Below, piece after piece: positions 4,011 through 24,609 of a DNA stretch of 64,000 nucleotides. Origin of the DNA: a virus. Numbering within the stretch: the stretch's first letter is position 1; every line of letters starts with the position of its first letter. The DNA lies in the IMG/VR virus record IMGVR_UViG_3300045926_000283, positions 1-64,000 of that record, one strand, 5' to 3'. The notes under the pieces are model-generated. The model was given only the letters and a program-made list of their open reading frames with translations. It made no database searches and was not told the DNA's origin. Made by a program: the position numbers and the translations under genes.

Positions 4011-4259
4011 TCAGTCTCCCAGCCACGTGACGTGTTCGGCGCGCGCGCCCTTCGGTGTCTGCTGCGGCTCGAAGGTCACCCGGGCGCCGGCCGACAGCTC
4101 CGCCAGCGAGCAGTTCTCCAGGCTGGTGTAGTGGAAGAAGTAGTCCTGCCCGTCGTAGCGCAGGAAGCCAAAGCCGCGATCGGGAACGGTCCTGAGCACG
4201 GTGCCGCGGACCAAGGTCGGGCCCGGCTGCTCGATGCGCTCGGTGTGCTTGCCCATCAT
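4011..4259 (-). CDS. Cold-shock domain nucleic-acid-binding protein
   Basis: An 82-residue single-domain protein. RGTVLRTVPDRGFGFLRYDG (RNP1 region) and DYFFHYTSL (RNP2 region) are the two aromatic RNA/ssDNA-binding motifs of the CspA fold; the closing strand is ARVTFEPQQTPKGARAEHV. It would bind single-stranded RNA or DNA, as a chaperone or antiterminator-like factor. Two start codons lie in tandem (ATGATG); the first, at 4259, has GGAG six bases upstream. It is part of the recombination/replication operon beside the helicase. Confidence 0.93.
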   Translation of the reverse strand: MMGKHTERIEQPGPTLVRGTVLRTVPDRGFGFLRYDGQDYFFHYTSLENCSLAELSAGARVTFEPQQTPKGARAEHVTWLGD

Positions 4260-14967: not shown

Positions 14968-15021
14968 GCTGGCAAGGGGGACCGCTCAGACGCAGGGGAC
15001 AGGCCGGGGTGGGGCGGTTCC

Positions 15022-15052
15022 GGCGCGCCGCCTTCAGGAGGCGCGGCGCGCC
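15022..15052 (-). terminator. Strong GC hairpin after the long leftward operon
   Basis: Arms GGCGCGCCGC (15022-15031) and GCGGCGCGCC (15043-15052) are perfect with an 11-base loop. It lies 26 bases beyond the stop of the gene ending at 15078. No T-run follows in the direction of transcription, so it is a stability hairpin or factor-dependent terminator. Confidence 0.45.
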
Positions 15053-15077
15053 GCCACCAGCCAGGGTCGGGGGTCGG

Positions 15078-15413
15078 TCAGGGCTCGTCGACGATCTCGC
15101 CGTCCTTGACCGCGACCTCGGCTTGCTGAGCCTCGGCGAGGCGGTCGTAGATCCGGCGGACTTCGGGGTACTTCAGCGGCGCGTGCCGGACGAAGTGCTC
15201 GTAGTTCAGGATCGGGATGAACTGCCACCACTCGCGCACGGTCGAGGAGCGCGGCGGGGGTGTAGTCCGGTAGCGTTCGAGGTAGGCCTCGATCGCATCG
15301 AGGACGGCACACGCCTCGCGCGCGCTCAGCGCCAGGTGGAGGGTCGGGGGCTCGGGGGGATCGATCGGGACGTTGGTGCGTCCGTAGATCTCTTCCGGGG
15401 TTCTTGGGGCCAT
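15078..15413 (-). CDS. Unknown protein, last gene of the small-gene operon
   Basis: A 111-residue protein (MAPRTPEEIYGRTNVPIDPP...) with LALSAREACAVLDAIEAYLERYR and YPEVRRIYDRLAEAQQAEVAV helices. Its ribosome-binding region is a long GA-repeat tract (15418-15461). No family recognised. Confidence 0.68.
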   Translation of the reverse strand: MAPRTPEEIYGRTNVPIDPPEPPTLHLALSAREACAVLDAIEAYLERYRTTPPPRSSTVREWWQFIPILNYEHFVRHAPLKYPEVRRIYDRLAEAQQAEVAVKDGEIVDEP

Positions 15414-15417
15414 CGGT

Positions 15418-15461
15418 CTCTCCTCTCTCTCTCTCTCTCTCGCTCTCGCTCTCGCTCTCTT
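15418..15461. repeat. CT/GA microsatellite serving as ribosome-binding region
   Basis: About 44 bases of CT and CTCG dinucleotide repeat, GA-rich on the transcribed strand, fill the gap between two small genes. Purine repeats of this kind contain many GAGG-like sites. Confidence 0.8.
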
Positions 15462-15677
15462 CTACGGCAGCCGGCCCATGATCGTGAAGCCCTGCCAGAA
15501 CAGCCCGCTGACCAGCACGATCAACGCCGCCAGCATCCACCGCAGCAGCCGCAGCTCGCCGCGGATGTCGGCGAGCGCGCGGTCGTAGCCGGCGACTTCC
15601 TCCGCCGCGATGCGGGCCTTGTCGGCGTTGCCGGGGTCGAGCAGCGCGTCGTGCAACGCGCCTAATCGCAAACTCAT
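15462..15677 (-). CDS. Small tail-anchored membrane protein
   Basis: A 71-residue protein. An acidic helical N-terminus (MSLRLGALHDALLDPGNADK...DRALADIRGELRLLR) precedes one membrane segment (WMLAALIVLVSGLFWQGF), so it is probably anchored in the inner membrane with the N-terminus in the cytoplasm. Upstream lies a perfect hairpin. Confidence 0.7.
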   Translation of the reverse strand: MSLRLGALHDALLDPGNADKARIAAEEVAGYDRALADIRGELRLLRWMLAALIVLVSGLFWQGFTIMGRLP

Positions 15678-15699
15678 AGTGTTCTCGCTCGCTCCTCTC

Positions 15700-15729
15700 G
15701 TGCTGCCGGCCAGCGACGACCGGCAGCAC
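15700..15729 (-). other. Intergenic hairpin (element E1)
   Basis: Arms GTGCTGCCGG (15700-15709) and CCGGCAGCAC (15720-15729), perfect 10-bp stem, 10-base loop, 23 bases before ATG 15677. Confidence 0.65.
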
Positions 15730-15740
15730 TCTCTGTGATA
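15728..15740. promoter_or_regulatory. 13-mer ACTCTCTGTGATA, copy 2
   Basis: Exact copy of the word at 9853-9865 and 24597-24609. Here it sits next to the E1 hairpin, within a leftward operon. Confidence 0.45.
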
Positions 15741-15743
15741 AGT

Positions 15744-15950
15744 CTACGCCTTCTTCTTGGTGACGTCGGTCGTCGGCTCGATGCGAAGGATCGGGGTGTG
15801 CTGCAGCAGCGTCGGCACGCCGTTCGCCCACTTCGCTCTGTGCTTGTAGACCGAGTCCCAGTTCGCTTCGATGGCGCGCACCGCCAGCTCGGGGCTGTGG
15901 GTGTCGACCTCGACCTCGAACTGCGCCTCGATCGTGACGATGACTCTCAT
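15744..15950 (-). CDS. Small strand-rich protein
   Basis: A 68-residue protein (MRVIVTIEAQFEVEVDTHSP...) with two beta strands and a helix (ELAVRAIEANWDSVYKHR), ending in Lys residues. ATG 15950 follows GAGGAGG and overlaps the upstream stop (ATGA). No family recognised. Confidence 0.68.
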   Translation of the reverse strand: MRVIVTIEAQFEVEVDTHSPELAVRAIEANWDSVYKHRAKWANGVPTLLQHTPILRIEPTTDVTKKKA

Positions 15951-16186
15951 CGTGCCTCCTCTCGCTCGACCGTCGCCCCCTGCCGGCGCAGGATCGCCGT
16001 GCCGCAGTCCTCGCAGTACCCGAACCACGGCCCGGGCGTCGGCTCGGTCTGTCCGTCCTTCACATCGCCGAGCGTGCGGGTGTCGACCACCCGCACGCGC
16101 ATCGTTGCGTGTTTCCGACAGCGGGTGAAGCGCCCGCCGTGGATCTCCCGCTTCTCACACTCGCAGATACTGCCCGGGCGCATCAT
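15947..16186 (-). CDS. Small zinc-finger protein
   Basis: A 79-residue protein. ICECEKREIHGGRFTRCRKH and GYCEDCGTAIL provide two cysteine/histidine pairs for one zinc. Tandem ATGs at 16186 and 16183 overlap the upstream stop. Function unknown. Confidence 0.68.
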   Translation of the reverse strand: MMRPGSICECEKREIHGGRFTRCRKHATMRVRVVDTRTLGDVKDGQTEPTPGPWFGYCEDCGTAILRRQGATVEREEAR

Positions 16187-16389
16187 CGCCGCACCCACAG
16201 CTTCCCGACGACTTCGGCGTCGTCGTTCTCTTCCACGATGTCGTAGGTCTCGCTGAGGAACTGTTCATAGTCCCCGTCGTCGAGCGCCTTGTCCGCCAGC
16301 TCCTTCAGCCGTGTGATCGCGCCCTTGCAGGCGTCGTAGAACCGGATCTCGTTGTCGAAGCTCGGCTCGAACTGCAGGGTGATCTTCAT
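16183..16389 (-). CDS. Small acidic protein
   Basis: A 68-residue protein (MKITLQFEPSFDNEIRFYDACK...) with a strand, a helix containing ACKGAITRLKELADKALDDGDYEQFL and an acidic patch. Ends overlap both neighbours. No family recognised. Confidence 0.68.
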   Translation of the reverse strand: MKITLQFEPSFDNEIRFYDACKGAITRLKELADKALDDGDYEQFLSETYDIVEENDDAEVVGKLWVRR

Positions 16390-16772
16390 CGCTCACCTGC
16401 CTTCTTCAGGAAGGCCGGCTCGATCCCCTTCGCCTTCCTGGTCGCCGCCGCCTTGTTGGCGCCGCGCTTCCGGTTCACCGTCGCCGCCCCGTCTCGATGC
16501 CGGGCCAGGACGCTGGTCACATCCGGCGGCAGCACGATCCGGTCGCCGCCCGTGGCGTCGTTCTTCTGCAGGAAGACCGTGTCGGACCCGTCGGCCCGCA
16601 CGGTCTTGATCACCCAGGTGACGCTGTTACCGTAGGTGTCGATCAGCTCGACGATCGACTGCTTGGTCACCGCCGCCGGGTTGTTGCTGCACTTCCTCAG
16701 CGCGACGCTGTACTCGTCGCGCGGCAGGCTCGTGGTCAGGTCGGTGTCGACCCCCACGTTCTTCACGCTCAT
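16386..16772 (-). CDS. Conserved phage protein of unknown function
   Basis: A 128-residue protein starting MSVKNVGVDTDLTTSLPRDEY. GNSVTWVIKTVRADGSDTVFLQK and GGDRIVLPPDVTSVLARHRD, then a basic AAATRKAKGIEPAF tail, form a pattern I recall in uncharacterised tailed-phage proteins. ATG 16772 has the operon's standard GAGAGGAGCGAGAGCG site. Confidence 0.72.
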   Translation of the reverse strand: MSVKNVGVDTDLTTSLPRDEYSVALRKCSNNPAAVTKQSIVELIDTYGNSVTWVIKTVRADGSDTVFLQKNDATGGDRIVLPPDVTSVLARHRDGAATVNRKRGANKAAATRKAKGIEPAFLKKAGER

Positions 16773-16797
16773 CGCTCTCGCTCCTCTCTGCTCGTTA

Positions 16798-17013
16798 TCA
16801 CTCGAACTCGACATCCTGCCGCACCATCACCGACGTCGTTCCGTCGCCCGGTCCGAACAGGTACGTGTCGTCGGCCGGGATCGGCTTCGCATAGCGGCGA
16901 TTGCCGACGTACCGCTCGGCGGCGGCCAGCGCCGCTTCGCGGGTGGGGTACTGCTTCTCCGTGTTGCTGTTCAGGAAGTAGCAGGTATAGGTCTCCAGGC
17001 GCTTGACGGCCAT
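16798..17013 (-). CDS. Small unknown protein
   Basis: A 71-residue protein (MAVKRLETYTCYFLNSNTEK...). A strand, a helix (TREAALAAAERYVG) and a closing strand (TSVMVRQDVEFE) suggest a compact alpha/beta fold. The upstream extension to 17334 is out-of-frame reading of the next gene. Its ATG shares a base with the upstream stop. Confidence 0.68.
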   Translation of the reverse strand: MAVKRLETYTCYFLNSNTEKQYPTREAALAAAERYVGNRRYAKPIPADDTYLFGPGDGTTSVMVRQDVEFE

Positions 17014-17261
17014 CAGACCACGCCCCGGATCCGCGCCTCGATCAGCCGCAGCTGCGTCAGCATCTCGCGCAGCCGCTGCTCGCCCTGCTTCCTCGGCAGC
17101 CAGTCGCCGCCGCGCTCGCGGTTCACCGCGAGATCGACCGCGTTCTGCTGATACGCGCGGAACTGCCGCACGTACTTCGCGCACGCCTTCGCCAGCAGCT
17201 CCAGCTCGTCGTACTTGTCGAGATGCGGCTCGTCTCGCCGCACCTCCTGCGTTCTGCTCAC
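17013..17261 (-). CDS. Small helical protein
   Basis: An 82-residue helical protein with a GTG start at 17261 (SRTQEVRRDEPHLDKYDE...), heptad-like Leu spacing and a basic C-terminal half. GAGAGGAGCGA precedes the start. The E2 hairpin pair lies just upstream. Confidence 0.65.
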   Translation of the reverse strand: MSRTQEVRRDEPHLDKYDELELLAKACAKYVRQFRAYQQNAVDLAVNRERGGDWLPRKQGEQRLREMLTQLRLIEARIRGVV

Positions 17262-17277
17262 TCGCTCCTCTCCTCTC

Positions 17278-17327
17278 GGAGTCGGTCATCGACTCCGCAC
17301 GCGGTCCGAACCTCGGCTCGGACCGCG
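17278..17327 (-). other. Double-hairpin element E2
   Basis: Hairpin A: CGCGGTCCGA (17300-17309) with TCGGACCGCG (17318-17327), 10 bp; the transcribed-strand loop is GCCGAGGT. Hairpin B: GGAGTCG (17278-17284) with CGACTCC (17290-17296). The downstream start is 17261. Confidence 0.8.
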
Positions 17328-17338
17328 CACGCAACCGA

Positions 17339-17569
17339 TCACCCCTGCTCGCTTGTTAGCTCCTTCGTCACGTCGAACTGCAGCACGACCTCGGTCTCGG
17401 AGTCGTGCTCAACCCACCTCCTCACGGCCGGGTAGCGCAGATCGTGGCTGGTCATCCCCTCGACCTCGGCCTCGGCTAGCTGCTCGGCCGCTTCCATCGT
17501 CTCCGCCTCGTAGACCTTGACGAACGTCGTCGTCGTGATCCGGTGCGCCAGTACTTCAAACCTCGCCAT
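17339..17569 (-). CDS. Small unknown protein
   Basis: A 76-residue acidic protein (MARFEVLAHRITTTTFVKVYE...) with a strand-helix-strand pattern; AETMEAAEQLAEAEVEG is the helix. No family recognised. Confidence 0.65.
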   Translation of the reverse strand: MARFEVLAHRITTTTFVKVYEAETMEAAEQLAEAEVEGMTSHDLRYPAVRRWVEHDSETEVVLQFDVTKELTSEQG

Positions 17570-17593
17570 TGCTCGTGCTCCTCTCTCTCTCCC

Positions 17594-17857
17594 TCAGACT
17601 GCCCTGAGGATCTCGACGTCCCGCCAGCGCACCCCACCCGGCTGCCCGTACACCGCCTCCCCGACCTTCAGCCTGAGCAGCTGCCGGCCGGTCTCGTCCC
17701 GTAGCTCCGCGCTCGCCACCGTGGCGTGGACGTGCTCGGTGCCTTCGAGGATGTCCCACATCCTCGCCTGCTTCGCCAGCCGCGCGTGATAGGCGACGTG
17801 GACCGGGCCGACGTAGACCTTCACGCGGTACAGCTTCGTCACCGCTCGCTCACTCAT
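17594..17857 (-). CDS. Small unknown protein
   Basis: An 87-residue protein (MSERAVTKLYRVKVYVGPVH...), mostly beta strand with VGEAVYGQPGGVRW near the end. ATG 17857 is preferred to the GTG just before it; GAGAGGGGAG lies upstream. Confidence 0.66.
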   Translation of the reverse strand: MSERAVTKLYRVKVYVGPVHVAYHARLAKQARMWDILEGTEHVHATVASAELRDETGRQLLRLKVGEAVYGQPGGVRWRDVEILRAV

Positions 17858-17877
17858 CACTCACTCCCCTCTCTCGC

Positions 17878-18087
17878 TCAGTAGTTCATCGAGTAGTCGA
17901 AGTCGCCGCCCTCCGCCCATCGCCGCTCCAGCCGCTTCTGGCACTTCACGCAGATCGAGCTGGTCGCCTTCAAGGGCAGCCGCTTGCCGCACTCCACACA
18001 CGTCCACCGTTCCCGCCCTCGGCTGTCGAGCGTCGGGCAGTCGCCTGCCTGATGCCCGCAGCAGGGGAAGTCTTCACACCTCGCCAT
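17878..18087 (-). CDS. Small zinc protein, CEDFPCCGH type
   Basis: A 69-residue protein. MARCEDFPCCGHQAGDCP is a cysteine cluster that recurs in many small phage proteins; WTCVECGKRLP and SSICVKCQKR form a second ribbon. Probably binds two zinc ions; the role is unknown. Confidence 0.75.
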   Translation of the reverse strand: MARCEDFPCCGHQAGDCPTLDSRGRERWTCVECGKRLPLKATSSICVKCQKRLERRWAEGGDFDYSMNY

Positions 18088-18122
18088 CACGCACGCTCCT
18101 CTCTCGCTCTCTGCTCTCGCTC

Positions 18123-18350
18123 TCAGACCAGCTTCTCGTTGTAGGCCGGCGTCACATGCCCGGCGAGGATGACCACGATGGACCACGCCCGCGCGTGCCC
18201 GTTCTCGTCGTTCTCCTCCTCGGGCGTCAGCTCGAAGTCGCGGGCGTCTCGGCCCTCGAACGGCTTCACGAAGATCTCGCCGACCGCACTCGGATGATCG
18301 AGGTACAACCCGATCAGCGTGTACGGCTTCCGCTCCTGCTGCTCACTCAT
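18123..18350 (-). CDS. Small unknown protein
   Basis: A 75-residue acidic protein (MSEQQERKPYTLIGLYLDHP...) with an internal acidic loop (FELTPEEENDENGHARAW) and a strand at the end. Standard GAGAGCG ribosome-binding site before ATG 18350. Confidence 0.66.
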   Translation of the reverse strand: MSEQQERKPYTLIGLYLDHPSAVGEIFVKPFEGRDARDFELTPEEENDENGHARAWSIVVILAGHVTPAYNEKLV

Positions 18351-18362
18351 CGCTCTCCTCCC

Positions 18363-18824
18363 TTACCTGACACTCGGCGGAACATAGATGCCCCGCACCC
18401 GCCCGTTGTTCGCGTCCTCGTGGCTCGTCCCCCGCGGCACCAGCCGCAGCACGGCGCCCCGCGGGTCGCCGTTGAACGCCGGCTGCAGCTCGGTCTTGGC
18501 GAGCAGCTGCTCGACCTTCGACTCCGCGTAGCAGCTCGGGCAGCGCCGCTCCCGCTTCCGCCTGACGCCCTTGCCGTCGGCGTACGGCACTTCCTCGACC
18601 ACCACCGGGCGGAAGCTCGCCGGCACGTAGCCGCTCTGGCACTTCGGGCAGTAGTCGACTTTGCGCTCGCCGTTATCCGCCGGCCAGTCGCCGTTGCACT
18701 CGGCCACCGCGAGCCGCTGCAGCGTCGTCGCGTAGCGCAGCAGCTTGCGGCTGGTCTCGATGTCCAATCCCGCCTTGGTCGCGGCGACGATGAACTCGTC
18801 GCGCTCCCGTGTGTAACTCATCAT
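18363..18824 (-). CDS. Zinc-ribbon phage protein
   Basis: A 153-residue protein. An N-terminal helix bundle (FIVAATKAGLDIETSRKLLRYATTLQRLAV) precedes CPKCQSGYV and RRCPSCYAE, two CxxC knuckles about 35 residues apart that fit one zinc ribbon. Tandem ATGs at 18824/18821 follow GAGAGGAGAGAGCG. Upstream, GATAACCCAGCG (18864-18877 inverse) is a relative of the operator word. Confidence 0.72.
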   Translation of the reverse strand: MMSYTRERDEFIVAATKAGLDIETSRKLLRYATTLQRLAVAECNGDWPADNGERKVDYCPKCQSGYVPASFRPVVVEEVPYADGKGVRRKRERRCPSCYAESKVEQLLAKTELQPAFNGDPRGAVLRLVPRGTSHEDANNGRVRGIYVPPSVR

Positions 18825-18882
18825 CGCTCTCTCCTCTCACGCTCTCTGTCTGACTGTTGTATCACGCTGGGTTATCGGTCGT

Positions 18883-19539
18883 TCACGCGGTCTTACGCAG
18901 CCAGATCACGTTGGCTGGCTTGAGCGGGCTGCTCCCGTGGTAGACCAGCCCGATCCGTCCCTTGCCCTGCTGCGCCGGCTTGTCGTTCTTGTTGCCGTCG
19001 ATGTACTTCGCTCGGCGCCGGTCGGCGTGACTGGCGAAGATGCGCGAGTGCGGCTTGCTGTGGTCGATCTGGTGATCGAGCTTGCCGCCAACGCTCTGGA
19101 TCACCGTGAAGTGCGCCGGCTTCCTGCTCCAGTCGAGATGCAGGCTCTTGGTGTAGCAGTACCACGCGCGATCCGGGAATCGCGCGATGATCCTGAACCA
19201 GCAGTCGAGATACGCCTGGCTGAAGAAGTCGCCGCTGTCGTGCAGCCGGATACTGCGCTGCTTGATCCGGTGGGTGAGGTCGTCGATCGCCAGCTCCTCG
19301 AAGCGGGCGAGGTCGGTTCGCGCTACGGCCAGATTCGCCTCTCGTGTCCGTCTTGCGTCGGGCATGAGAAAGCGACCCTGCCTCGCGTAGCACAGGGTCG
19401 CGCAGCCACCGGCCTGCGGACAGACAGCAAAGCCGTCCGCAGACCGGAACGCCGGGAGGTTGAAGCTGACAGTGCGCGTCTTACGGAGCTTGCGGTTGTT
19501 GACCGACCAGTAGAGCCGCTCCGCTCGACGCCTGCTCAC
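18883..19539 (-). CDS. Gp88-family phage protein
   Basis: A 218-residue protein. NNRKLRKTRTVSFNLPAFRSADGFAVCPQAGGCATLCYARQGRF at the N-terminus is the signature of the Gp88 family (gene product 88 of mycobacteriophages): NxKL, SFNLPA, then CP...C...CYA. Later segments include LHDSGDFFSQAYLDCWFRIIARFPDRAWYCYTKS. The four cysteines may bind metal or an Fe-S cluster; the biochemical role is not known. GTG 19539 overlaps the upstream stop (GTGA). Confidence 0.87.
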   Translation of the reverse strand: MSRRRAERLYWSVNNRKLRKTRTVSFNLPAFRSADGFAVCPQAGGCATLCYARQGRFLMPDARRTREANLAVARTDLARFEELAIDDLTHRIKQRSIRLHDSGDFFSQAYLDCWFRIIARFPDRAWYCYTKSLHLDWSRKPAHFTVIQSVGGKLDHQIDHSKPHSRIFASHADRRRAKYIDGNKNDKPAQQGKGRIGLVYHGSSPLKPANVIWLRKTA

Positions 19540-19973
19540 TCCGCCGCCTTGGCGACGAGGCGAGGCTCGATCTCGCAGCCGAACAGCATCGCGTAGCGGT
19601 CGGTCTTGTCGGGCGGCGACACCACGCCGCCCGCCGCGCTGATCGTGCGCCGCCGCGCGATCCGCTCCCTGGTCTGCCGCTTCCACCACTCCGGCGGCTG
19701 CCGCAGACTGAGGTACACGCCCAGCCACCCGTGCTCGATGAAGTAGCCCTTCACCGTGGCCGGGCCGAGGTTGTTCATGTAGGCAGTGACCTTCGTCCCC
19801 ACCGTGGGCGGCGCCTGCTCGCCGCTCCACAGCGCGACCTCGTCGCTGTAGTTCTCGATGATCGGATCGCCGTGCTGATCCTTCACCGAGGTGCTGTAGA
19901 CGGGGCGCTGCCACGCGGGCCGCGTCGTCTGCAGCTCGTACCGGGTCACACCCGGTTTCCTCTGCTCACTCAT
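19536..19973 (-). CDS. Unknown protein coupled to the Gp88 gene
   Basis: A 145-residue protein (MSEQRKPGVTRYELQTTRPA...). The first half is strand-rich with VGTKVTAYMNNLGPATVKGYFIEHGWLGVYLSL, like a small beta-barrel; the second half is helical and basic. ATG 19973 follows a GA-rich tract. Function unknown. Confidence 0.72.
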   Translation of the reverse strand: MSEQRKPGVTRYELQTTRPAWQRPVYSTSVKDQHGDPIIENYSDEVALWSGEQAPPTVGTKVTAYMNNLGPATVKGYFIEHGWLGVYLSLRQPPEWWKRQTRERIARRRTISAAGGVVSPPDKTDRYAMLFGCEIEPRLVAKAAE

Positions 19974-20024
19974 GGACTCACTCTCTCTCTCTCTGGAGTC
20001 GCTCTCTCGTGCGCTCCGCTGGGC

Positions 20025-20048
20025 GAGGCTCGACCCACTGCGGTCGAG
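20025..20048 (-). other. Intergenic hairpin element E3
   Basis: GGCTCGACC (20025-20033) pairs with GGTCGAGCC (20040-20048), 9 bp with a 6-base loop, upstream of ATG 19973. It lacks the GCCGAGGT loop of its relatives. Confidence 0.65.
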
Positions 20049-20080
20049 CCCCGCACGCAGCACACGAGCTACTTGCTCTC

Positions 20081-20281
20081 TCAGCTCGCCGTGTTCAGCC
20101 GCTCGCACAGCTCGTCCACCTCGCCGAAGTCCAGCGGCGCGTCGTCCTCGAAGTGGCCGAGGAACCGCTCCGGGATCTCGCCCGTGCCCTCCTCCAGCAC
20201 TTCCTCCTGCCAGAACCTGAGCGCCACCAGGACCGTCGCCAGCTCACGGTCGGTCAATCGTCCTGCCACTCGTTTGCCCAT
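20081..20281 (-). CDS. Small acidic phage protein
   Basis: A 66-residue protein (MGKRVAGRLTDRELATVLVAL...). LTDRELATVLVALRFWQEEV and PLDFGEVDELCERLN are helices recalled from small uncharacterised phage proteins. Standard ribosome-binding site. Confidence 0.7.
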   Translation of the reverse strand: MGKRVAGRLTDRELATVLVALRFWQEEVLEEGTGEIPERFLGHFEDDAPLDFGEVDELCERLNTAS

Positions 20282-20302
20282 CGCTCTCTCCTCTCTGCTC
20301 TC

Positions 20303-20728
20303 TCAGCCGTAGATCAGCGTGCCGAACACGGTCAGCTGCAGCACCACGTCAGCGGTCTCCGCGTCGTCGTTCTCCTGCAGGAAGTTGGCGAGGTGGCTCA
20401 TCGCGCCCGGGAAGGGCATCGGCTTGCCGCCGCCGTTGTCGGGCATCATCCCGGACACCGCGCACGCGCCCAGCCGCTCCAGCCCCTTCGCCAGATCCTC
20501 GGCGGCGATCATTCGCCGCACCCTCGGCCCGTCGTCGTGCGATTCGTGCTCGACGACCTCGACGCCCAGGTAGTCGAGATTGACCGCCTGATGGACCTTG
20601 CGGAAGCCCGCCCAGTAATTGGACCCGCCCTCGACCGCACTGCACAGCAGGTCTCTCAACCGCTGCACGTCGATGTCGATGGGGACGACGATCCGCACCC
20701 GCTCCTCCTTCACGCTCTCGTCACTCAT
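20303..20728 (-). CDS. Conserved phage protein of unknown function
   Basis: A 141-residue protein starting MSDESVKEERVRIVVPIDID. VQRLRDLLCSAVEGGSNYWAGF is followed by MIAAEDLAKGLERLG and AMSHLANFLQENDDAETADVVLQLTVFG. The EGG(S/I)xYW core recurs in phage proteins that, to my knowledge, have no assigned activity. Standard start site; element E4 is upstream. Confidence 0.74.
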   Translation of the reverse strand: MSDESVKEERVRIVVPIDIDVQRLRDLLCSAVEGGSNYWAGFRKVHQAVNLDYLGVEVVEHESHDDGPRVRRMIAAEDLAKGLERLGACAVSGMMPDNGGGKPMPFPGAMSHLANFLQENDDAETADVVLQLTVFGTLIYG

Positions 20729-20744
20729 GGTTCTCTCTCCCTCT

Positions 20745-20799
20745 GGAATCGACTCACCGACTCCGCACGACGGCTGGAACCTCGTTCGGCTCCAGCCGT
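20745..20799 (-). other. Double-hairpin element E4
   Basis: Hairpin A: ACGGCTGGA (20770-20778) with TCCAGCCGT (20791-20799), 9 bp; the loop is the E2 loop with four extra bases. Hairpin B: GGAATCG (20745-20751) with CGACTCC (20758-20764), including one G-U pair in RNA. The downstream start is 20728. Confidence 0.8.
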
Positions 20800-20829
20800 G
20801 CCGCGCAATCGTCGAATCGCTCACCCGCC

Positions 20830-21045
20830 TTAGTCCTCGTCGGTCAACCACTCCCCGCACTCGTCGCACTGGTAGTAGCAGTCGAAGTCCTGGTACGGCG
20901 GATGCTCGGCGTCGTAGGCGAAGCAGTTGCCTCGCCCGTCCGGCCCGTCGCCCATCGCCCCGTACTTCTCCTCGGCCTCGTCCTCGGTGGGACGACAGCC
21001 GACGCAGAAGTCGTACGGGTCATTCGCGCTCGTGTAGATCCGCAT
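20830..21045 (-). CDS. Small acidic zinc protein
   Basis: A 71-residue protein (MRIYTSANDPYDFCVGCRPTE...) with FCVGC and YQCDECGEWL cysteine pairs separated by an acidic loop. One zinc site likely. Confidence 0.7.
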   Translation of the reverse strand: MRIYTSANDPYDFCVGCRPTEDEAEEKYGAMGDGPDGRGNCFAYDAEHPPYQDFDCYYQCDECGEWLTDED

Positions 21046-21066
21046 CGCTCTCCTCGCTCTCTTTCC

Positions 21067-21264
21067 TCACTGCTCCTCGAACTCCGCCTTCTTGCTCAGG
21101 AAGCCCGGATCGTGCGTGGCGTTCCACGCCTTGCAGATTGCCCGCGCCTCCTCGATGGTCTTGACGTTCTTGCGGATCGTCCGCCGCTTCCCTGCGCCGG
21201 GCTCGCGTCCGCCCGGCCATGCCGGGTTGGCGATCCACCACGTCCTCGTGAACACTCGGTACAT
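21067..21264 (-). CDS. Small unknown protein
   Basis: A 65-residue protein (MYRVFTRTWWIANPAWPGGR...) with a basic middle and helix TIEEARAICKAWNATHDPG. ATG 21264 has the standard site; the longer upstream frame does not. Confidence 0.68.
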   Translation of the reverse strand: MYRVFTRTWWIANPAWPGGREPGAGKRRTIRKNVKTIEEARAICKAWNATHDPGFLSKKAEFEEQ

Positions 21265-21286
21265 CACTCGCTCCTCTCTCGCTCTC

Positions 21287-21565
21287 TCAGCCTTTCGTCT
21301 CATCGAACGGCTGCCCGACATAGGTCTCGCAGCACTCCCGCGAGCAGAACAGTCTCCCGCCCGCAATCGGCCCGCTCTGCCTCTTCCCTTGGTCATCATC
21401 GACGTGGAAGCGGTACAGCCAGTGGCCTGTCACCTGCCCGCCTCGCCGCCGCTCTCTCCGTCCGCCGCACCAGTCGCACGTCGAGATCGTGACTCGCACG
21501 ACCTCCGCCATGATGCTGTGGCGGGCGAAGCTGTTGCGTACTACGCTCCTCCTCCTCTCGCTCAT
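21287..21565 (-). CDS. Small zinc-finger protein
   Basis: A 92-residue protein with TISTCDWCGGRRER and GRLFCSRECCETYVG. CxxC...CxxxC spacing resembles treble-clef zinc knuckles. Start ATG 21565 follows GGGAGAGCGAG and element E5. Confidence 0.7.
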   Translation of the reverse strand: MSERRRSVVRNSFARHSIMAEVVRVTISTCDWCGGRRERRRGGQVTGHWLYRFHVDDDQGKRQSGPIAGGRLFCSRECCETYVGQPFDETKG

Positions 21566-21579
21566 CTCGCTCTCCCTCT

Positions 21580-21623
21580 GGAGTCAGTGACTCCGCGAGG
21601 GGCTGGAACCTCGGCTCCAGCCC
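21580..21623 (-). other. Double-hairpin element E5
   Basis: Hairpin A: GGGCTGGA (21600-21607) with TCCAGCCC (21616-21623); transcribed loop GCCGAGGT, identical to E2. Hairpin B: GGAGTC (21580-21585) with GACTCC (21589-21594), triloop. Confidence 0.82.
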
Positions 21624-21639
21624 TCCCCGCAGTCGCCGA

Positions 21640-21870
21640 CTACTCAGGGTCGAGCTGCGACCCGTACGCCCAGTGCCCGTTGTTCAGGCCCACCGTGCAG
21701 TAATCGGCTCGCACTCTCGCCCACGGCAGCTCCTGCACCTCACGGCCATACTTCTCGTGCGGCCGGTCGGTCTCATCGATGCTCGTGACCACGGCCAACC
21801 GCGCTGGCTGGCTGCCCCACGCGCCGCGCCACCTCACGCGGTCGCCCACTCGCAACATCTGCTCTCCCAT
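21640..21870 (-). CDS. Small SH3-like protein
   Basis: A 76-residue protein (MGEQMLRVGDRVRWRGAWGS...). VGDRVRWRG...ARLAVVTSID...REVQELPWARVRAD is a short five-strand pattern like small SH3-type barrels. Function unknown. Confidence 0.66.
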   Translation of the reverse strand: MGEQMLRVGDRVRWRGAWGSQPARLAVVTSIDETDRPHEKYGREVQELPWARVRADYCTVGLNNGHWAYGSQLDPE

Positions 21871-21891
21871 CGCTCTCTCCTCTCGCTGCTC

Positions 21892-22386
21892 TCAGCACGC
21901 CTCCATCCACTCCGTCACATCCAGCCCGCACGGCAGCTCATCGCGCCTCGCGGCGAACACGCTCACGTGCTCGCCGTAGTGCTGGCCGTACCGCTGGATG
22001 ATCCGCACCCGCTCCGCCACGCTCTCTCGCTCCCAGCACTCGCCCGCCGCGACGTCGATCCGCTGGCTGTAGTCGTCCTCGTCGAGGATTGGGTACTCGC
22101 TCAGGCTGCCCTCGATCTCCTCCGCCTCGCGGTACTTGTCCTCGTCCTTCGGGTCGACGAGGATCAGCTCGAACCAGCCGCAGGCCCAGTGCCCGAAGCG
22201 ATGCACCTGCACGCTGTCGCTCTCGCCGCCGAGCTGCGCCAGCGCGACGGCGAAGTTGGACTGCGTCAGGTAGTCGCTGTCCCGCGTCTGCGAGTACAGC
22301 ACCTCGAAGTCGCTGATCCCGTGCCGCTCGCCGCCGAGGCCCGCCGGGTCGAACCCGGTCGGGCGGAACTCCCTGTACCTCTCCAT
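21892..22386 (-). CDS. Acidic phage protein of unknown function
   Basis: A 164-residue acidic protein (MERYREFRPTGFDPAGLGGE...). HRFGHWACGWFELILVDP and DVAAGECWERESVAERVRIIQRYGQH are the most distinctive segments. It lies in the standard operon with a GAGAGCG site. Confidence 0.72.
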   Translation of the reverse strand: MERYREFRPTGFDPAGLGGERHGISDFEVLYSQTRDSDYLTQSNFAVALAQLGGESDSVQVHRFGHWACGWFELILVDPKDEDKYREAEEIEGSLSEYPILDEDDYSQRIDVAAGECWERESVAERVRIIQRYGQHYGEHVSVFAARRDELPCGLDVTEWMEAC

Positions 22387-22408
22387 CGCTCTCTCCCCTC
22401 TCGCTCTG

Positions 22409-22666
22409 CTACTCCGTCACCCGATCCCAGCTCCGCCACTCCGGCGCGTGAACCGTCCACGTCGTCCGTCGCTGGCCCTCCAGCGGAATCCCCAGCGTGT
22501 CCCACGTCGGGACCTCGCCCTTGTGCTCCTTGCAGTAGCGGCACGAGCAGCCGCCGTCGATCACCCGGCGCAGCTCGTAGGGGATCCGCACGTAGACCGA
22601 TCCGCGCCATACCCGGAGCACGTCCCAGCCTTGCAGGCTGATATTACACTCCGTCATATCCTCCAT
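22409..22666 (-). CDS. Small phage protein with CxC..C pattern
   Basis: An 85-residue protein (MEDMTECNISLQGWDVLRVW...). A strand-rich first half is followed by CSCRYCKEHKG and WDTLGIPLEG. The cysteines may bind zinc. Element E6 is upstream. Confidence 0.7.
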   Translation of the reverse strand: MEDMTECNISLQGWDVLRVWRGSVYVRIPYELRRVIDGGCSCRYCKEHKGEVPTWDTLGIPLEGQRRTTWTVHAPEWRSWDRVTE

Positions 22667-22680
22667 CGCTCTCTCCCTCT

Positions 22681-22725
22681 GGAGTCGAAGACTCCGCGAA
22701 GGGCCTGAACCCTCGGCTCAGGCCC
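22681..22725 (-). other. Double-hairpin element E6
   Basis: Hairpin A: GGGCCTGA (22701-22708) with TCAGGCCC (22718-22725); transcribed loop GCCGAGGGT. Hairpin B: GGAGTC (22681-22686) with GACTCC (22690-22695). The downstream start is 22666. Confidence 0.82.
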
Positions 22726-22755
22726 AACGCGCAATCTCATCGACCCTGCTCTCGC

Positions 22756-23307
22756 CTACGGCCGTCTCACTTCCTGATCGTCCTCGACCTGCCACACCCG
22801 GTACGGCGCTTTCTCCTCCTCGAACCAGTCATGGCCCAGGCAGTAGGTCTTCACCCCGCCCGCCTCGAACGCGTCCAGATCCCCCGCGCCCGGGCAGCAC
22901 GGCGAGCAGAACCGCGCCGTGGTGTAGTACGGCGAGCGGATCACGTAGATCCCGAGGCTGCTCGTCTCCAGCACGTACCCCTCCGCCTCGTAGCGGTAGG
23001 TGTCCTCGCTCTCCTCGTAGCGGTCGTTGAAGCGATCCTCGACGTCGCCCCAGATGCCGCTGACGTGCTCCTCGACCTGTGCCGCGTCGGCAATGTCGAA
23101 GTCGTCGACCAGCACTCGGCTGAGCGCCAGCCGGATCTGGTCCTTGACCGCGTCGACCGCTGCCGCGTGCGTCAGGTTCTCGCCGCTCGTCCAGATGTCC
23201 TGCGTGGCCTCTGGGTTCGGCGTGTGCGGGCTGATCACCCCGTACCGGATCCCGGTCGCGTGATCCACGTTGGCCAATCCCCGCCCATAGTCAATCCCTG
23301 CACTCAT
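22756..23307 (-). CDS. Conserved phage protein (GIDYGRG family)
   Basis: A 183-residue acidic protein starting MSAGIDYGRGLANVDHATGI. The GIDYGRGxxNxDxxTGIRYGVI opening is shared by many uncharacterised phage proteins. The C-terminal part carries CSPCCPGAGDLD and CLGHDWF, a likely metal site. No activity is known to me. Confidence 0.8.
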   Translation of the reverse strand: MSAGIDYGRGLANVDHATGIRYGVISPHTPNPEATQDIWTSGENLTHAAAVDAVKDQIRLALSRVLVDDFDIADAAQVEEHVSGIWGDVEDRFNDRYEESEDTYRYEAEGYVLETSSLGIYVIRSPYYTTARFCSPCCPGAGDLDAFEAGGVKTYCLGHDWFEEEKAPYRVWQVEDDQEVRRP

Positions 23308-23353
23308 CGCTCTCTCCTCTCGGGCCCGGATCGTCCTTCATCCGTCCCCCACA

Positions 23354-23417
23354 GGGCTCACGCGACCCACGCTGAGCCCTCTAGGCGACAGACCGGGCAG
23401 AGTCTCGCCCTGCCCGG
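23354..23417 (-). other. Double-hairpin element E7
   Basis: GGGCTCA (23354-23360) pairs with TGAGCCC (23373-23379), and CCGGGCAG (23393-23400) with CTGCCCGG (23410-23417). Same two-stem layout before ATG 23307, different loops. Confidence 0.68.
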
Positions 23418-23433
23418 ACCAGATCGCTCCTTG

Positions 23434-23679
23434 CTAGGCCGCCTTGGTCTTCAGCTCCGCGTCGTTGGCCTTGATGAAGGCCTTGACCTGCTCGGCCATC
23501 GCCAACAGCTTCTCCCACTGCTCCCGGTACAGCGTGACCGGGAATCTGCCCAACCCATAGACGCTCAGTCCGCCCTTGGGGCTGACCTTGAGCGTGACCT
23601 TGGGCGTGCGCGCGGCCTTCAGCCTCGCGTTCTCTGCGATCAGCCGTGCGATCTCCGCTTGCATCTGTTCGTTGCTCAT
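23434..23679 (-). CDS. Coiled-coil phage protein
   Basis: An 81-residue protein starting MSNEQMQAEIARLIAENARL, a leucine-zipper-like helix, then VTLKVSPKGGLSVYGLGRFPVTLYREQWEKLLAMA. The GxxSVYGLGRFPVTLYxxQW core recurs in small phage proteins. It is the promoter-proximal gene of the long leftward operon; AGAGGAG precedes ATG 23679. Confidence 0.78.
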   Translation of the reverse strand: MSNEQMQAEIARLIAENARLKAARTPKVTLKVSPKGGLSVYGLGRFPVTLYREQWEKLLAMAEQVKAFIKANDAELKTKAA

Positions 23680-23693
23680 CTCTGCACTCCTCT

Positions 23694-23738
23694 GGGCTTC
23701 GATGGAAGCCCTAATGCCGTCTGGGCTATGAACCAGAC
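23694..23738 (-). other. Double-hairpin element E8
   Basis: GGGCTTC (23694-23700) with GAAGCCC (23705-23711), and GTCTGG (23719-23724) with CCAGAC (23733-23738). First element of the leftward operon. Confidence 0.68.
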
Positions 23739-23739
23739 T

Positions 23740-24596
23740 GCCGCATTTCAGGCGAGCTTCCCATGTAGGGTTCCCCTCGCCTGTCACCTGCGTCCGCGCG
23801 CGTACACAGCTCGCGCTGTGGGTGATACGCTCGCGGTGTGAGCGGTGCCTACTCCGGTGCCTGTGGGGGACTCAGGGTCGCGTGGTCGCCCGCGACGGAA
23901 GGCTTTAAGACTCACTGGGCGTTTAGCGTGTGAGCGATCAGCGCCGTCGTAGGCTCGCCTGTCCTACCCGTTCTGCCGGTCTGGTCGTACTCCGGCTCCC
24001 CTGCCCGCCTTGGGTGTGGCCGTCGGCAAGGGCGTTTCGGCTATGGCTGCCTGCCTGTAGTCTCAGTGTCGGACGGCTACTGACTCCCCGGAATGGCTTC
24101 GTCGGGGCGGAGCGTTCGTCGTCCGGCATGCCTTGGGGCAGACCGCGTTTGTCAGAGAACTCGAACCCACCGCGTCCCGCAGGCGACCAAGGGCCCTGTC
24201 GGGGCACCGGCGAACCGGTGCGGAGCGGCGTGCTGCCTGCCAAATTTGCAGGCACCGTGCCAAACGCAAAAACGGCCGGTTTTCGGCACCTTGCGCCGTT
24301 TGTTCGCCTTGAAAATCTGCCGGTTTCGGTAGAAAAAACCGACTTTTGTCTGCCTGCAGGCAGATTGCACAGAATTGCACGGACGTCGTCCCGCTAACTC
24401 CTTCGCTATCAACGAGTTCCGAGGACTGGTTCCGATAATCTAGGTTATGTTAACTAGCTCGGCTGTAGTGGTCCTGTAGGCCGTAGGACCAGGGCATTGT
24501 CCGGGGGGTAGGCCCGCGCGACCTAAGGACATGTCCGGGACTCAGCACAATTTTTCTCACAAATTTGTCGCGCAATTTTTCGGCGCGCGAGCGATT
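23740..24596. other. Hairpin-rich non-coding divide between the two transcription arms
   Basis: No frame here is supported by a start site or protein-like composition. Structures seen: GCACCGG/CCGGTGC around CGAA (24204-24221; a UUCG loop on the minus strand), GCCTGC/GCAGGC (24235-24253), a 16-base perfect palindrome TCTGCCTGCAGGCAGA (24349-24364), repeated TTGCAC (24365-24381), GGTCCT/AGGACC (24470-24490) and AT-rich stretches at 24435-24458 and 24550-24580. It separates the leftward and rightward genes and probably holds the main promoters; an att site or second origin is possible. Confidence 0.6.
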
Positions 24597-24609
24597 ACTC
24601 TCTGTGATA
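24597..24609. promoter_or_regulatory. 13-mer ACTCTCTGTGATA, copy 3
   Basis: Exact copy of the word at 9853 and 15728, ending 11 bases before ATG 24621. TGATAG (24605-24610) could act as a -10 box; no -35 match is evident. Confidence 0.5.

Follow-up and report, generated by a model that had tools for sequence, protein, structure and literature searches.

In the early region of phage T7, RNase III sites are intercistronic stem-loops of 20-odd base pairs (bp) with internal irregularities, repeated along the early transcript upstream of ribosome-binding sites (RBSs). Here, we analysed positions 1–64,000 of virus record IMGVR_UViG_3300045926_000283 (the window, 64,000 of 70,496 bases), in which one RNA element recurs on the minus (mRNA) strand in the gaps before the genes starting at 17261, 20728, 21565 and 22666, with a fifth, diverged copy in the gap before 19973. 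The predicted rods formed by this element resemble the T7 sites in size and placement, although they are predicted folds only and most hairpins of related phages are shorter. Several phage clusters are known to contain start-associated inverted repeats of unknown function; in the present case, the pairing rather than the sequence is conserved, and only in early operons. Judged from the sequences, the RNA fold probably matters for the processing or translation of early gene chains, and a role at the RNA level is directly testable by disrupting and restoring the stem.

The start-associated sequences (SAS) of cluster K mycobacteriophages and their extended form (ESAS) are present in multiple copies at non-structural genes only and comprise an RBS leader, with upstream inverted repeats in about half of the cases; their consensus varies by subcluster and their function is unknown (PMC3203893). 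Similar motifs are found in Microbacterium cluster EF phages (PMC7302621). Likewise, the phage of the window carries conserved RBS sequences at a subset of its non-structural genes (GAGAGGAGAGAGCG, CAGAGGGAGAG), and its elements occupy the position of the ESAS repeats, but these leaders are distinct from the 13-mer GGGATAGGAGCCC of cluster K. Furthermore, the inverted-repeat arms of cluster K are conserved in sequence and lack covariation, and RNA pairing was judged unlikely (PMC3203893), whereas the arms in the window phage vary and covary, with pairing kept as the sequence changes. Short inverted repeats within intergenic gaps are also known from Microbacterium cluster EG (conserved 18-bp repeats, 14–22 bp upstream of starts; PMC7302621) and cluster O mycobacteriophages (17-bp repeats, about a third of them inside genes; PMC4351075). 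These differ from the window elements in being shorter and of fixed sequence, and covariation was not reported for them. The put RNA of HK022 is represented by two ~70-nucleotide (nt) elements per genome, downstream of early promoters, which act on RNA polymerase (PMC9378689); both are structured RNAs about 70 nt long within the early transcripts of a phage, but the window elements stand as five copies before individual genes. Finally, the PeSLs of T4-type phages, in the secondary account of PMC4503421, are repeated intergenic stem-loop cassettes of early variable regions with an early promoter and a terminator; set against that summary, the window elements differ, as neither feature was found at them. 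A small search of the open-access literature returned no description of start-associated hairpins with free sequence and conserved pairing, which is weak evidence of novelty. Such a class of structural RNA would escape sequence-based repeat searches, since its copies can all differ from one another in sequence.

Architecture and predicted fold of the element

In the mRNA sense, the element reads 5' GRYUGCG - variable stem - GCCGAGG(U) - complementary stem - YGCGGAGUC, followed after 3 to 8 nt by GACUCC (GAUUCC in one copy), AGAGGGAGAG or a close variant, and the start codon. The four best copies begin 0–9 nt past a stop codon and end 15–27 nt ahead of the next start codon. The apical GCCGAGG and the UGCG/YGCGGAGUC flanks are conserved across copies, while the complementary stems change. 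An earlier note, made from the DNA alone, had reported covarying stem-loops in the four gaps, and our analysis confirmed them on the minus strand, with stems that vary between copies and pair in each. The internal motif UGCG/YGCGGA, the constant leader CAGAGGGAGAG that precedes the start codon, and the occurrence of comparable elements in related phages were absent from that note. The copies and associated features are as follows, all on the minus strand.

17284..17343, minus: predicted rod of copy 1, upstream of gene 17013-17261 (fold; covariance-model match 17268-17336, expectation value (E) 5e-17 by construction)
17278..17296, minus: hairpin B of copy 1 (CGGAGTCG[ATGAC]CGACTCCG), alternative to the rod base (sequence; 5.1 kcal/mol less stable)
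20745..20826, minus: predicted rod of copy 2, upstream of gene 20303-20728 (fold; model match 20735-20810, E 7.5e-14)
20745..20764, minus: hairpin B of copy 2 (GGAGTCG...CGATTCC, with a G-U pair) (sequence; 5.8 kcal/mol less stable)
21583..21640, minus: predicted rod of copy 3, upstream of gene 21287-21565 (fold; model match 21570-21634, E 1.3e-16)
21580..21594, minus: hairpin B of copy 3 (GGAGTC[ACT]GACTCC) (sequence; 3.4 kcal/mol less stable)
22684..22744, minus: predicted rod of copy 4, upstream of gene 22409-22666 (fold; model match 22671-22736, E 1.6e-16)
22681..22695, minus: hairpin B of copy 4 (GGAGTC[TTC]GACTCC) (sequence; 9.4 kcal/mol less stable)
20006..20068, minus: rod of the diverged copy 5, upstream of the gene starting at 19973 (fold; model match 19985-20062, E 5e-5, outside the training set)
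22667..22681, minus: start-associated leader CAGAGGGAGAGAGCG, directly before ATG (gene call and upstream sequences)
23320..23420, minus: hairpins before 23307, a structured gap outside the family (fold; no model hit up to E 10)

Thermodynamic prediction returned a single bulged rod of 22–30 bp as the ground state of the four copies, the rods having an internal bulge or a G.G mismatch. The two hairpins described previously, A and B, can both be formed by the sequence, but this combined fold is predicted to be 3.4–9.4 kcal/mol weaker than the rod in all four copies, with a probability of ~0 for hairpin B. The rod and the A + B fold are mutually exclusive because GGAGUC pairs in both, and A and B can form together only when the rod base is open. 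What had been viewed as a conserved GCCGAGGT loop is indeed conserved, with inserts in two copies, but corresponds to an apical stem, GC/GU (or GCC/GGU), enclosing CGAG. Similarly, the GGAGTC/GACTCC arms assigned to hairpin B are kept in three copies, the one before 20728 having GGAGTC/GATTCC instead.

A covariance model built from the four copies recovered these with E values of 5e-17 to 7.5e-14, which are by construction, and its alignment contained no non-standard pairs, although the stems differ. When the copies were aligned with MAFFT, which left one out of register, 91% of cells paired and four pairs showed double changes, with a covariation score that was matched by 8 of 500 shuffles. 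This covariation across four related copies is suggestive of selection on structure, short of proof. The model further detected the independent fifth copy before 19973, which retains UGCG/GCGGAG and GCGACTCCAGAG, so that one of the three further gaps proposed to hold related stem-loops belongs to the family, while the hairpins at 23307 and 23679 gave no hit up to E 10 and are unrelated to it. Strong hairpins were present in 5 of the 14 early gaps of the window, compared with 0.0 from dinucleotide shuffles.

Outside the window, the model gave no strong hit over 49 relative records, the best distant one being in record G006 (28.7 bits). When 2.9 million viral contigs were scanned for the exact pattern of hairpin B plus leader, 15 matches were obtained, none with the architecture of the element. 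A descriptor for UGCG/YGCGGA matched seven times in sense in early DNA, three times in antisense, and four times in late DNA, which is too few for the core to be counted as clade-wide. Rfam had no matches across the window and a single one elsewhere, at chance level (E 3.5).

Hairpins in the early regions of related phages

The window derives from an uncultivated phage contig, a ~70-kb soil virus of bacteria from a little-known group, which encodes terminase, SLT-domain and helicase genes. Small early genes occupy the minus strand below ~24 kb and late genes the plus strand above ~24 kb, these labels being inferred from gene content and orientation. Searching with the terminase retrieved 62 related loci at 58–73% identity, while two hypothetical proteins used as queries retrieved none, and no match to the terminase turned up among 85,000 genomes of bacteria and archaea. 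DNA searches of a phage collection found no near match, and one distant match of 190 bases to a Bradyrhizobium phage.

Early regions were taken from 20 terminase-related records, plus further loci directly. The sample comprised same-strand early gaps of 40–160 nt from 22 genomes, including the window phage, and a hairpin was considered strong at a score of 10 or more. Such hairpins were found in 49 of 142 early gaps, against 0.38 expected from dinucleotide shuffles, and in only 1 of 59 late gaps and 3 of 150 random windows. Upon removal of L051, a repeat of G009, and of L054, with all other loci kept, the count was 45 of 143 early gaps (early versus late, Fisher p 5e-7). Hairpins are thus present in relatives at the distance available, no close DNA relative having been found.

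Read in the coding-strand sense, the 53 distinct hairpins contain 25 G-T versus 5 A-C oppositions (p 3e-4); detection scored GT and AC alike, and hairpins of the same genome are not fully independent. An excess of GT over AC is expected if the transcript folds and not if duplex DNA is the functional form. Their median distance from the stop codon is 12 nt (interquartile range 8–20) and from hairpin to start 45 nt, with the purine-rich RBS of the next gene mostly outside the hairpin structure. Across alignable early DNA overall, 34 of 369 pairs were broken in gap hairpins versus 1343 of 4117 in coding hairpins, a difference partly due to the close pair G002/G016.

A gene family whose proteins carry YPRLPELAPR, or a variant of it, close to the start, and for which PHROG returned no match, allowed comparison at one orthologous site. 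A strong hairpin lies upstream of it in G001, G002, G004, G008, L025, L073 and L074, and G016, a near relative of G002, has the same hairpin as the latter. The hairpin is retained in every genome found to carry the gene, with unrelated stems in several. The hairpins of G001, L025 and G002 can be aligned over 13 pairs, with two double compensatory changes, two one-sided changes and no broken pair; the statistics of this three-sequence alignment are weak, as 52 of 500 shuffles reach the score. In these three genomes, the form GGAGCG...CGCU(U)CC of hairpin B follows, with one base bulged in G001 and G002. Selection on RNA structure, as previously proposed, is therefore supported by the wobble asymmetry, the hairpin excess in early gaps and the compensatory changes at this site.

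Candidate functions

We assign a probability of about 0.4 to the reading, made by analogy with the RNase III sites of T7, that these are structure-selected intercistronic elements of early polycistronic mRNAs that serve as processing or stabilising insulators. A host double-strand RNase of the RNase III type would cut at the element, or decay would stop there, which would leave every early gene with a separate, stable transcript and an unobstructed start site. Such a role would tolerate stem drift and leave loops free to differ between phages, and the UGCG/YGCGGAGUC core and hairpin B of the window phage would be a local refinement. It is favoured by the position between ribosome footprints, the drifting stems, the loop differences and the lack of promoter or terminator features. 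At 22–30 bp, unbranched and between cistrons, the window rods have the size of an RNase III processing site (~two turns). Several points weigh against insulation: many hairpins of relatives span only 10–16 bp, which is short for a classical site; G011, G012, G014 and G019 had no strong hairpin in the gaps tested; the gene starts are the output of our own simple gene caller; and the conserved apical sequence of the window phage, together with the CACACA loops of G007 (see below), suggests that the loop, too, may be recognised.

Since the two folds are mutually exclusive, as predicted in all four window copies, the leading rival is a translation-coupled switch, which we consider unlikely. Here, a ribosome ending the upstream gene, 0–9 nt before the rod starts, would open the rod base, hairpin B would form, and the next gene would be translated only after translation of the one before it; hairpin B would keep the CUCC of GACUCC off the Shine-Dalgarno sequence GGGAG, with the rod base and B competing for GGAGUC. 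Yet sequestration by CUCC would involve a helix of only 3–4 bp, and the rod is favoured by up to 9.4 kcal/mol. Several relatives show near-balance or competition, with free-energy differences (ddG) of 0.5–0.7 (G004, G001) and 3.7–7.6 (G006 5877, L025), but in G006 5079 and G002 the stable state includes hairpin B, so the balance is not conserved. A small second hairpin (score 6 or more) follows hairpin A in 15 of 50 cases versus 3.0 expected, and the GGAGCG...CGCU(U)CC form is retained at the orthologous locus, although the second hairpin is missing from half of the hairpin gaps. Extended to the clade, this reading would have rod and small hairpin compete ahead of each early gene, in a sequence version particular to each phage, with the next gene turned on by translation of the preceding one or by some other signal; it seems just as doubtful.

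A slightly weaker case can be made for sites at which a trans-acting RNA-binding protein, regulating translation or stability, would read the loop or internal motif, the stems needing only to pair. It is suggested by the loop and the UGCG/YGCGGA core, near-invariant in the window phage while stems vary, and by L110 (G007), where four hairpins before 4319, 4594, 5716 and 8744 present the same CACACA loop on unrelated stems. In most relatives, however, loops vary from hairpin to hairpin, and no candidate regulator was identified. A cold-shock-domain protein (Pfam CSD) is encoded in 12 of the 27 records searched, but its gene adjoins a helicase gene, which would fit single-stranded DNA binding equally well. 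In the window, it maps to 4011-4259 (minus), next to a PIF1-like helicase gene; a function as antiterminator was considered and kept as a lead only. Some of the CACACA hairpins of L110 are followed by CA-rich leaders.

Inverted repeats acting as DNA, either as protein-binding sites or, like PeSLs, as recombination linkers that shuffle early genes, would account for multiple intergenic copies in a gene-variable region. This is improbable, given that the excess of GT over AC favours the transcribed strand, the stems do not retain their sequence, orphans are no more frequent among genes behind hairpins (p 0.53), and the window elements lack the promoter that a PeSL requires.

A put/nut-like antitermination RNA, which in HK022 works through the beta' zinc-binding domain of RNA polymerase, would have in common with the elements a structured RNA in an early operon and a superficial likeness in size, but such action is very unlikely because of copy number and location, with five copies within one gene string rather than two downstream of early promoters, and the comparison is further unsupported by a scan of 16500-24600 that found no sigma-70-like promoter, by the absence of Rfam matches, and by sequences and loops that differ between relatives. 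A role as intrinsic terminators or attenuators for the genes upstream would explain why hairpins begin right past stop codons, but it is equally hard to sustain with TTTT within 10 nt of only 1 of 53 hairpins, no terminator-like match at the window elements, and too little space for a promoter ahead of the next gene.

Leaders, other palindromes and neighbouring genes

Close variants of the leader CAGAGGGAGAGAGCG recur before many genes of the 15–24 kb interval, and most early genes at 15000-24000 (minus) share a purine-rich leader of the GAGAGGAGAGAGCG kind ahead of the start codon. Other genomes use different versions, such as CACAGGAGACACGACC in G009. Promoter-like palindromes are present in other gaps of some relatives: upstream of the terminase in L036, L051, L061, L072 and L076, palindromes of the CATATGCAT type overlap sigma-70-like promoters (e.g. 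TTGACA ... TAGACT in L051) and are perhaps the operators of a repressor.

Among the genes near the elements, 20830-21045 (minus) encodes a 71-residue protein with 61% identity to a protein of Bradyrhizobium phage BDU-MI-1; the phage collection held no other match to this region, and this one is a weak hint at the host. The protein encoded by 18883-19539 (minus) matches Pfam GP88 (E 2.5e-32).

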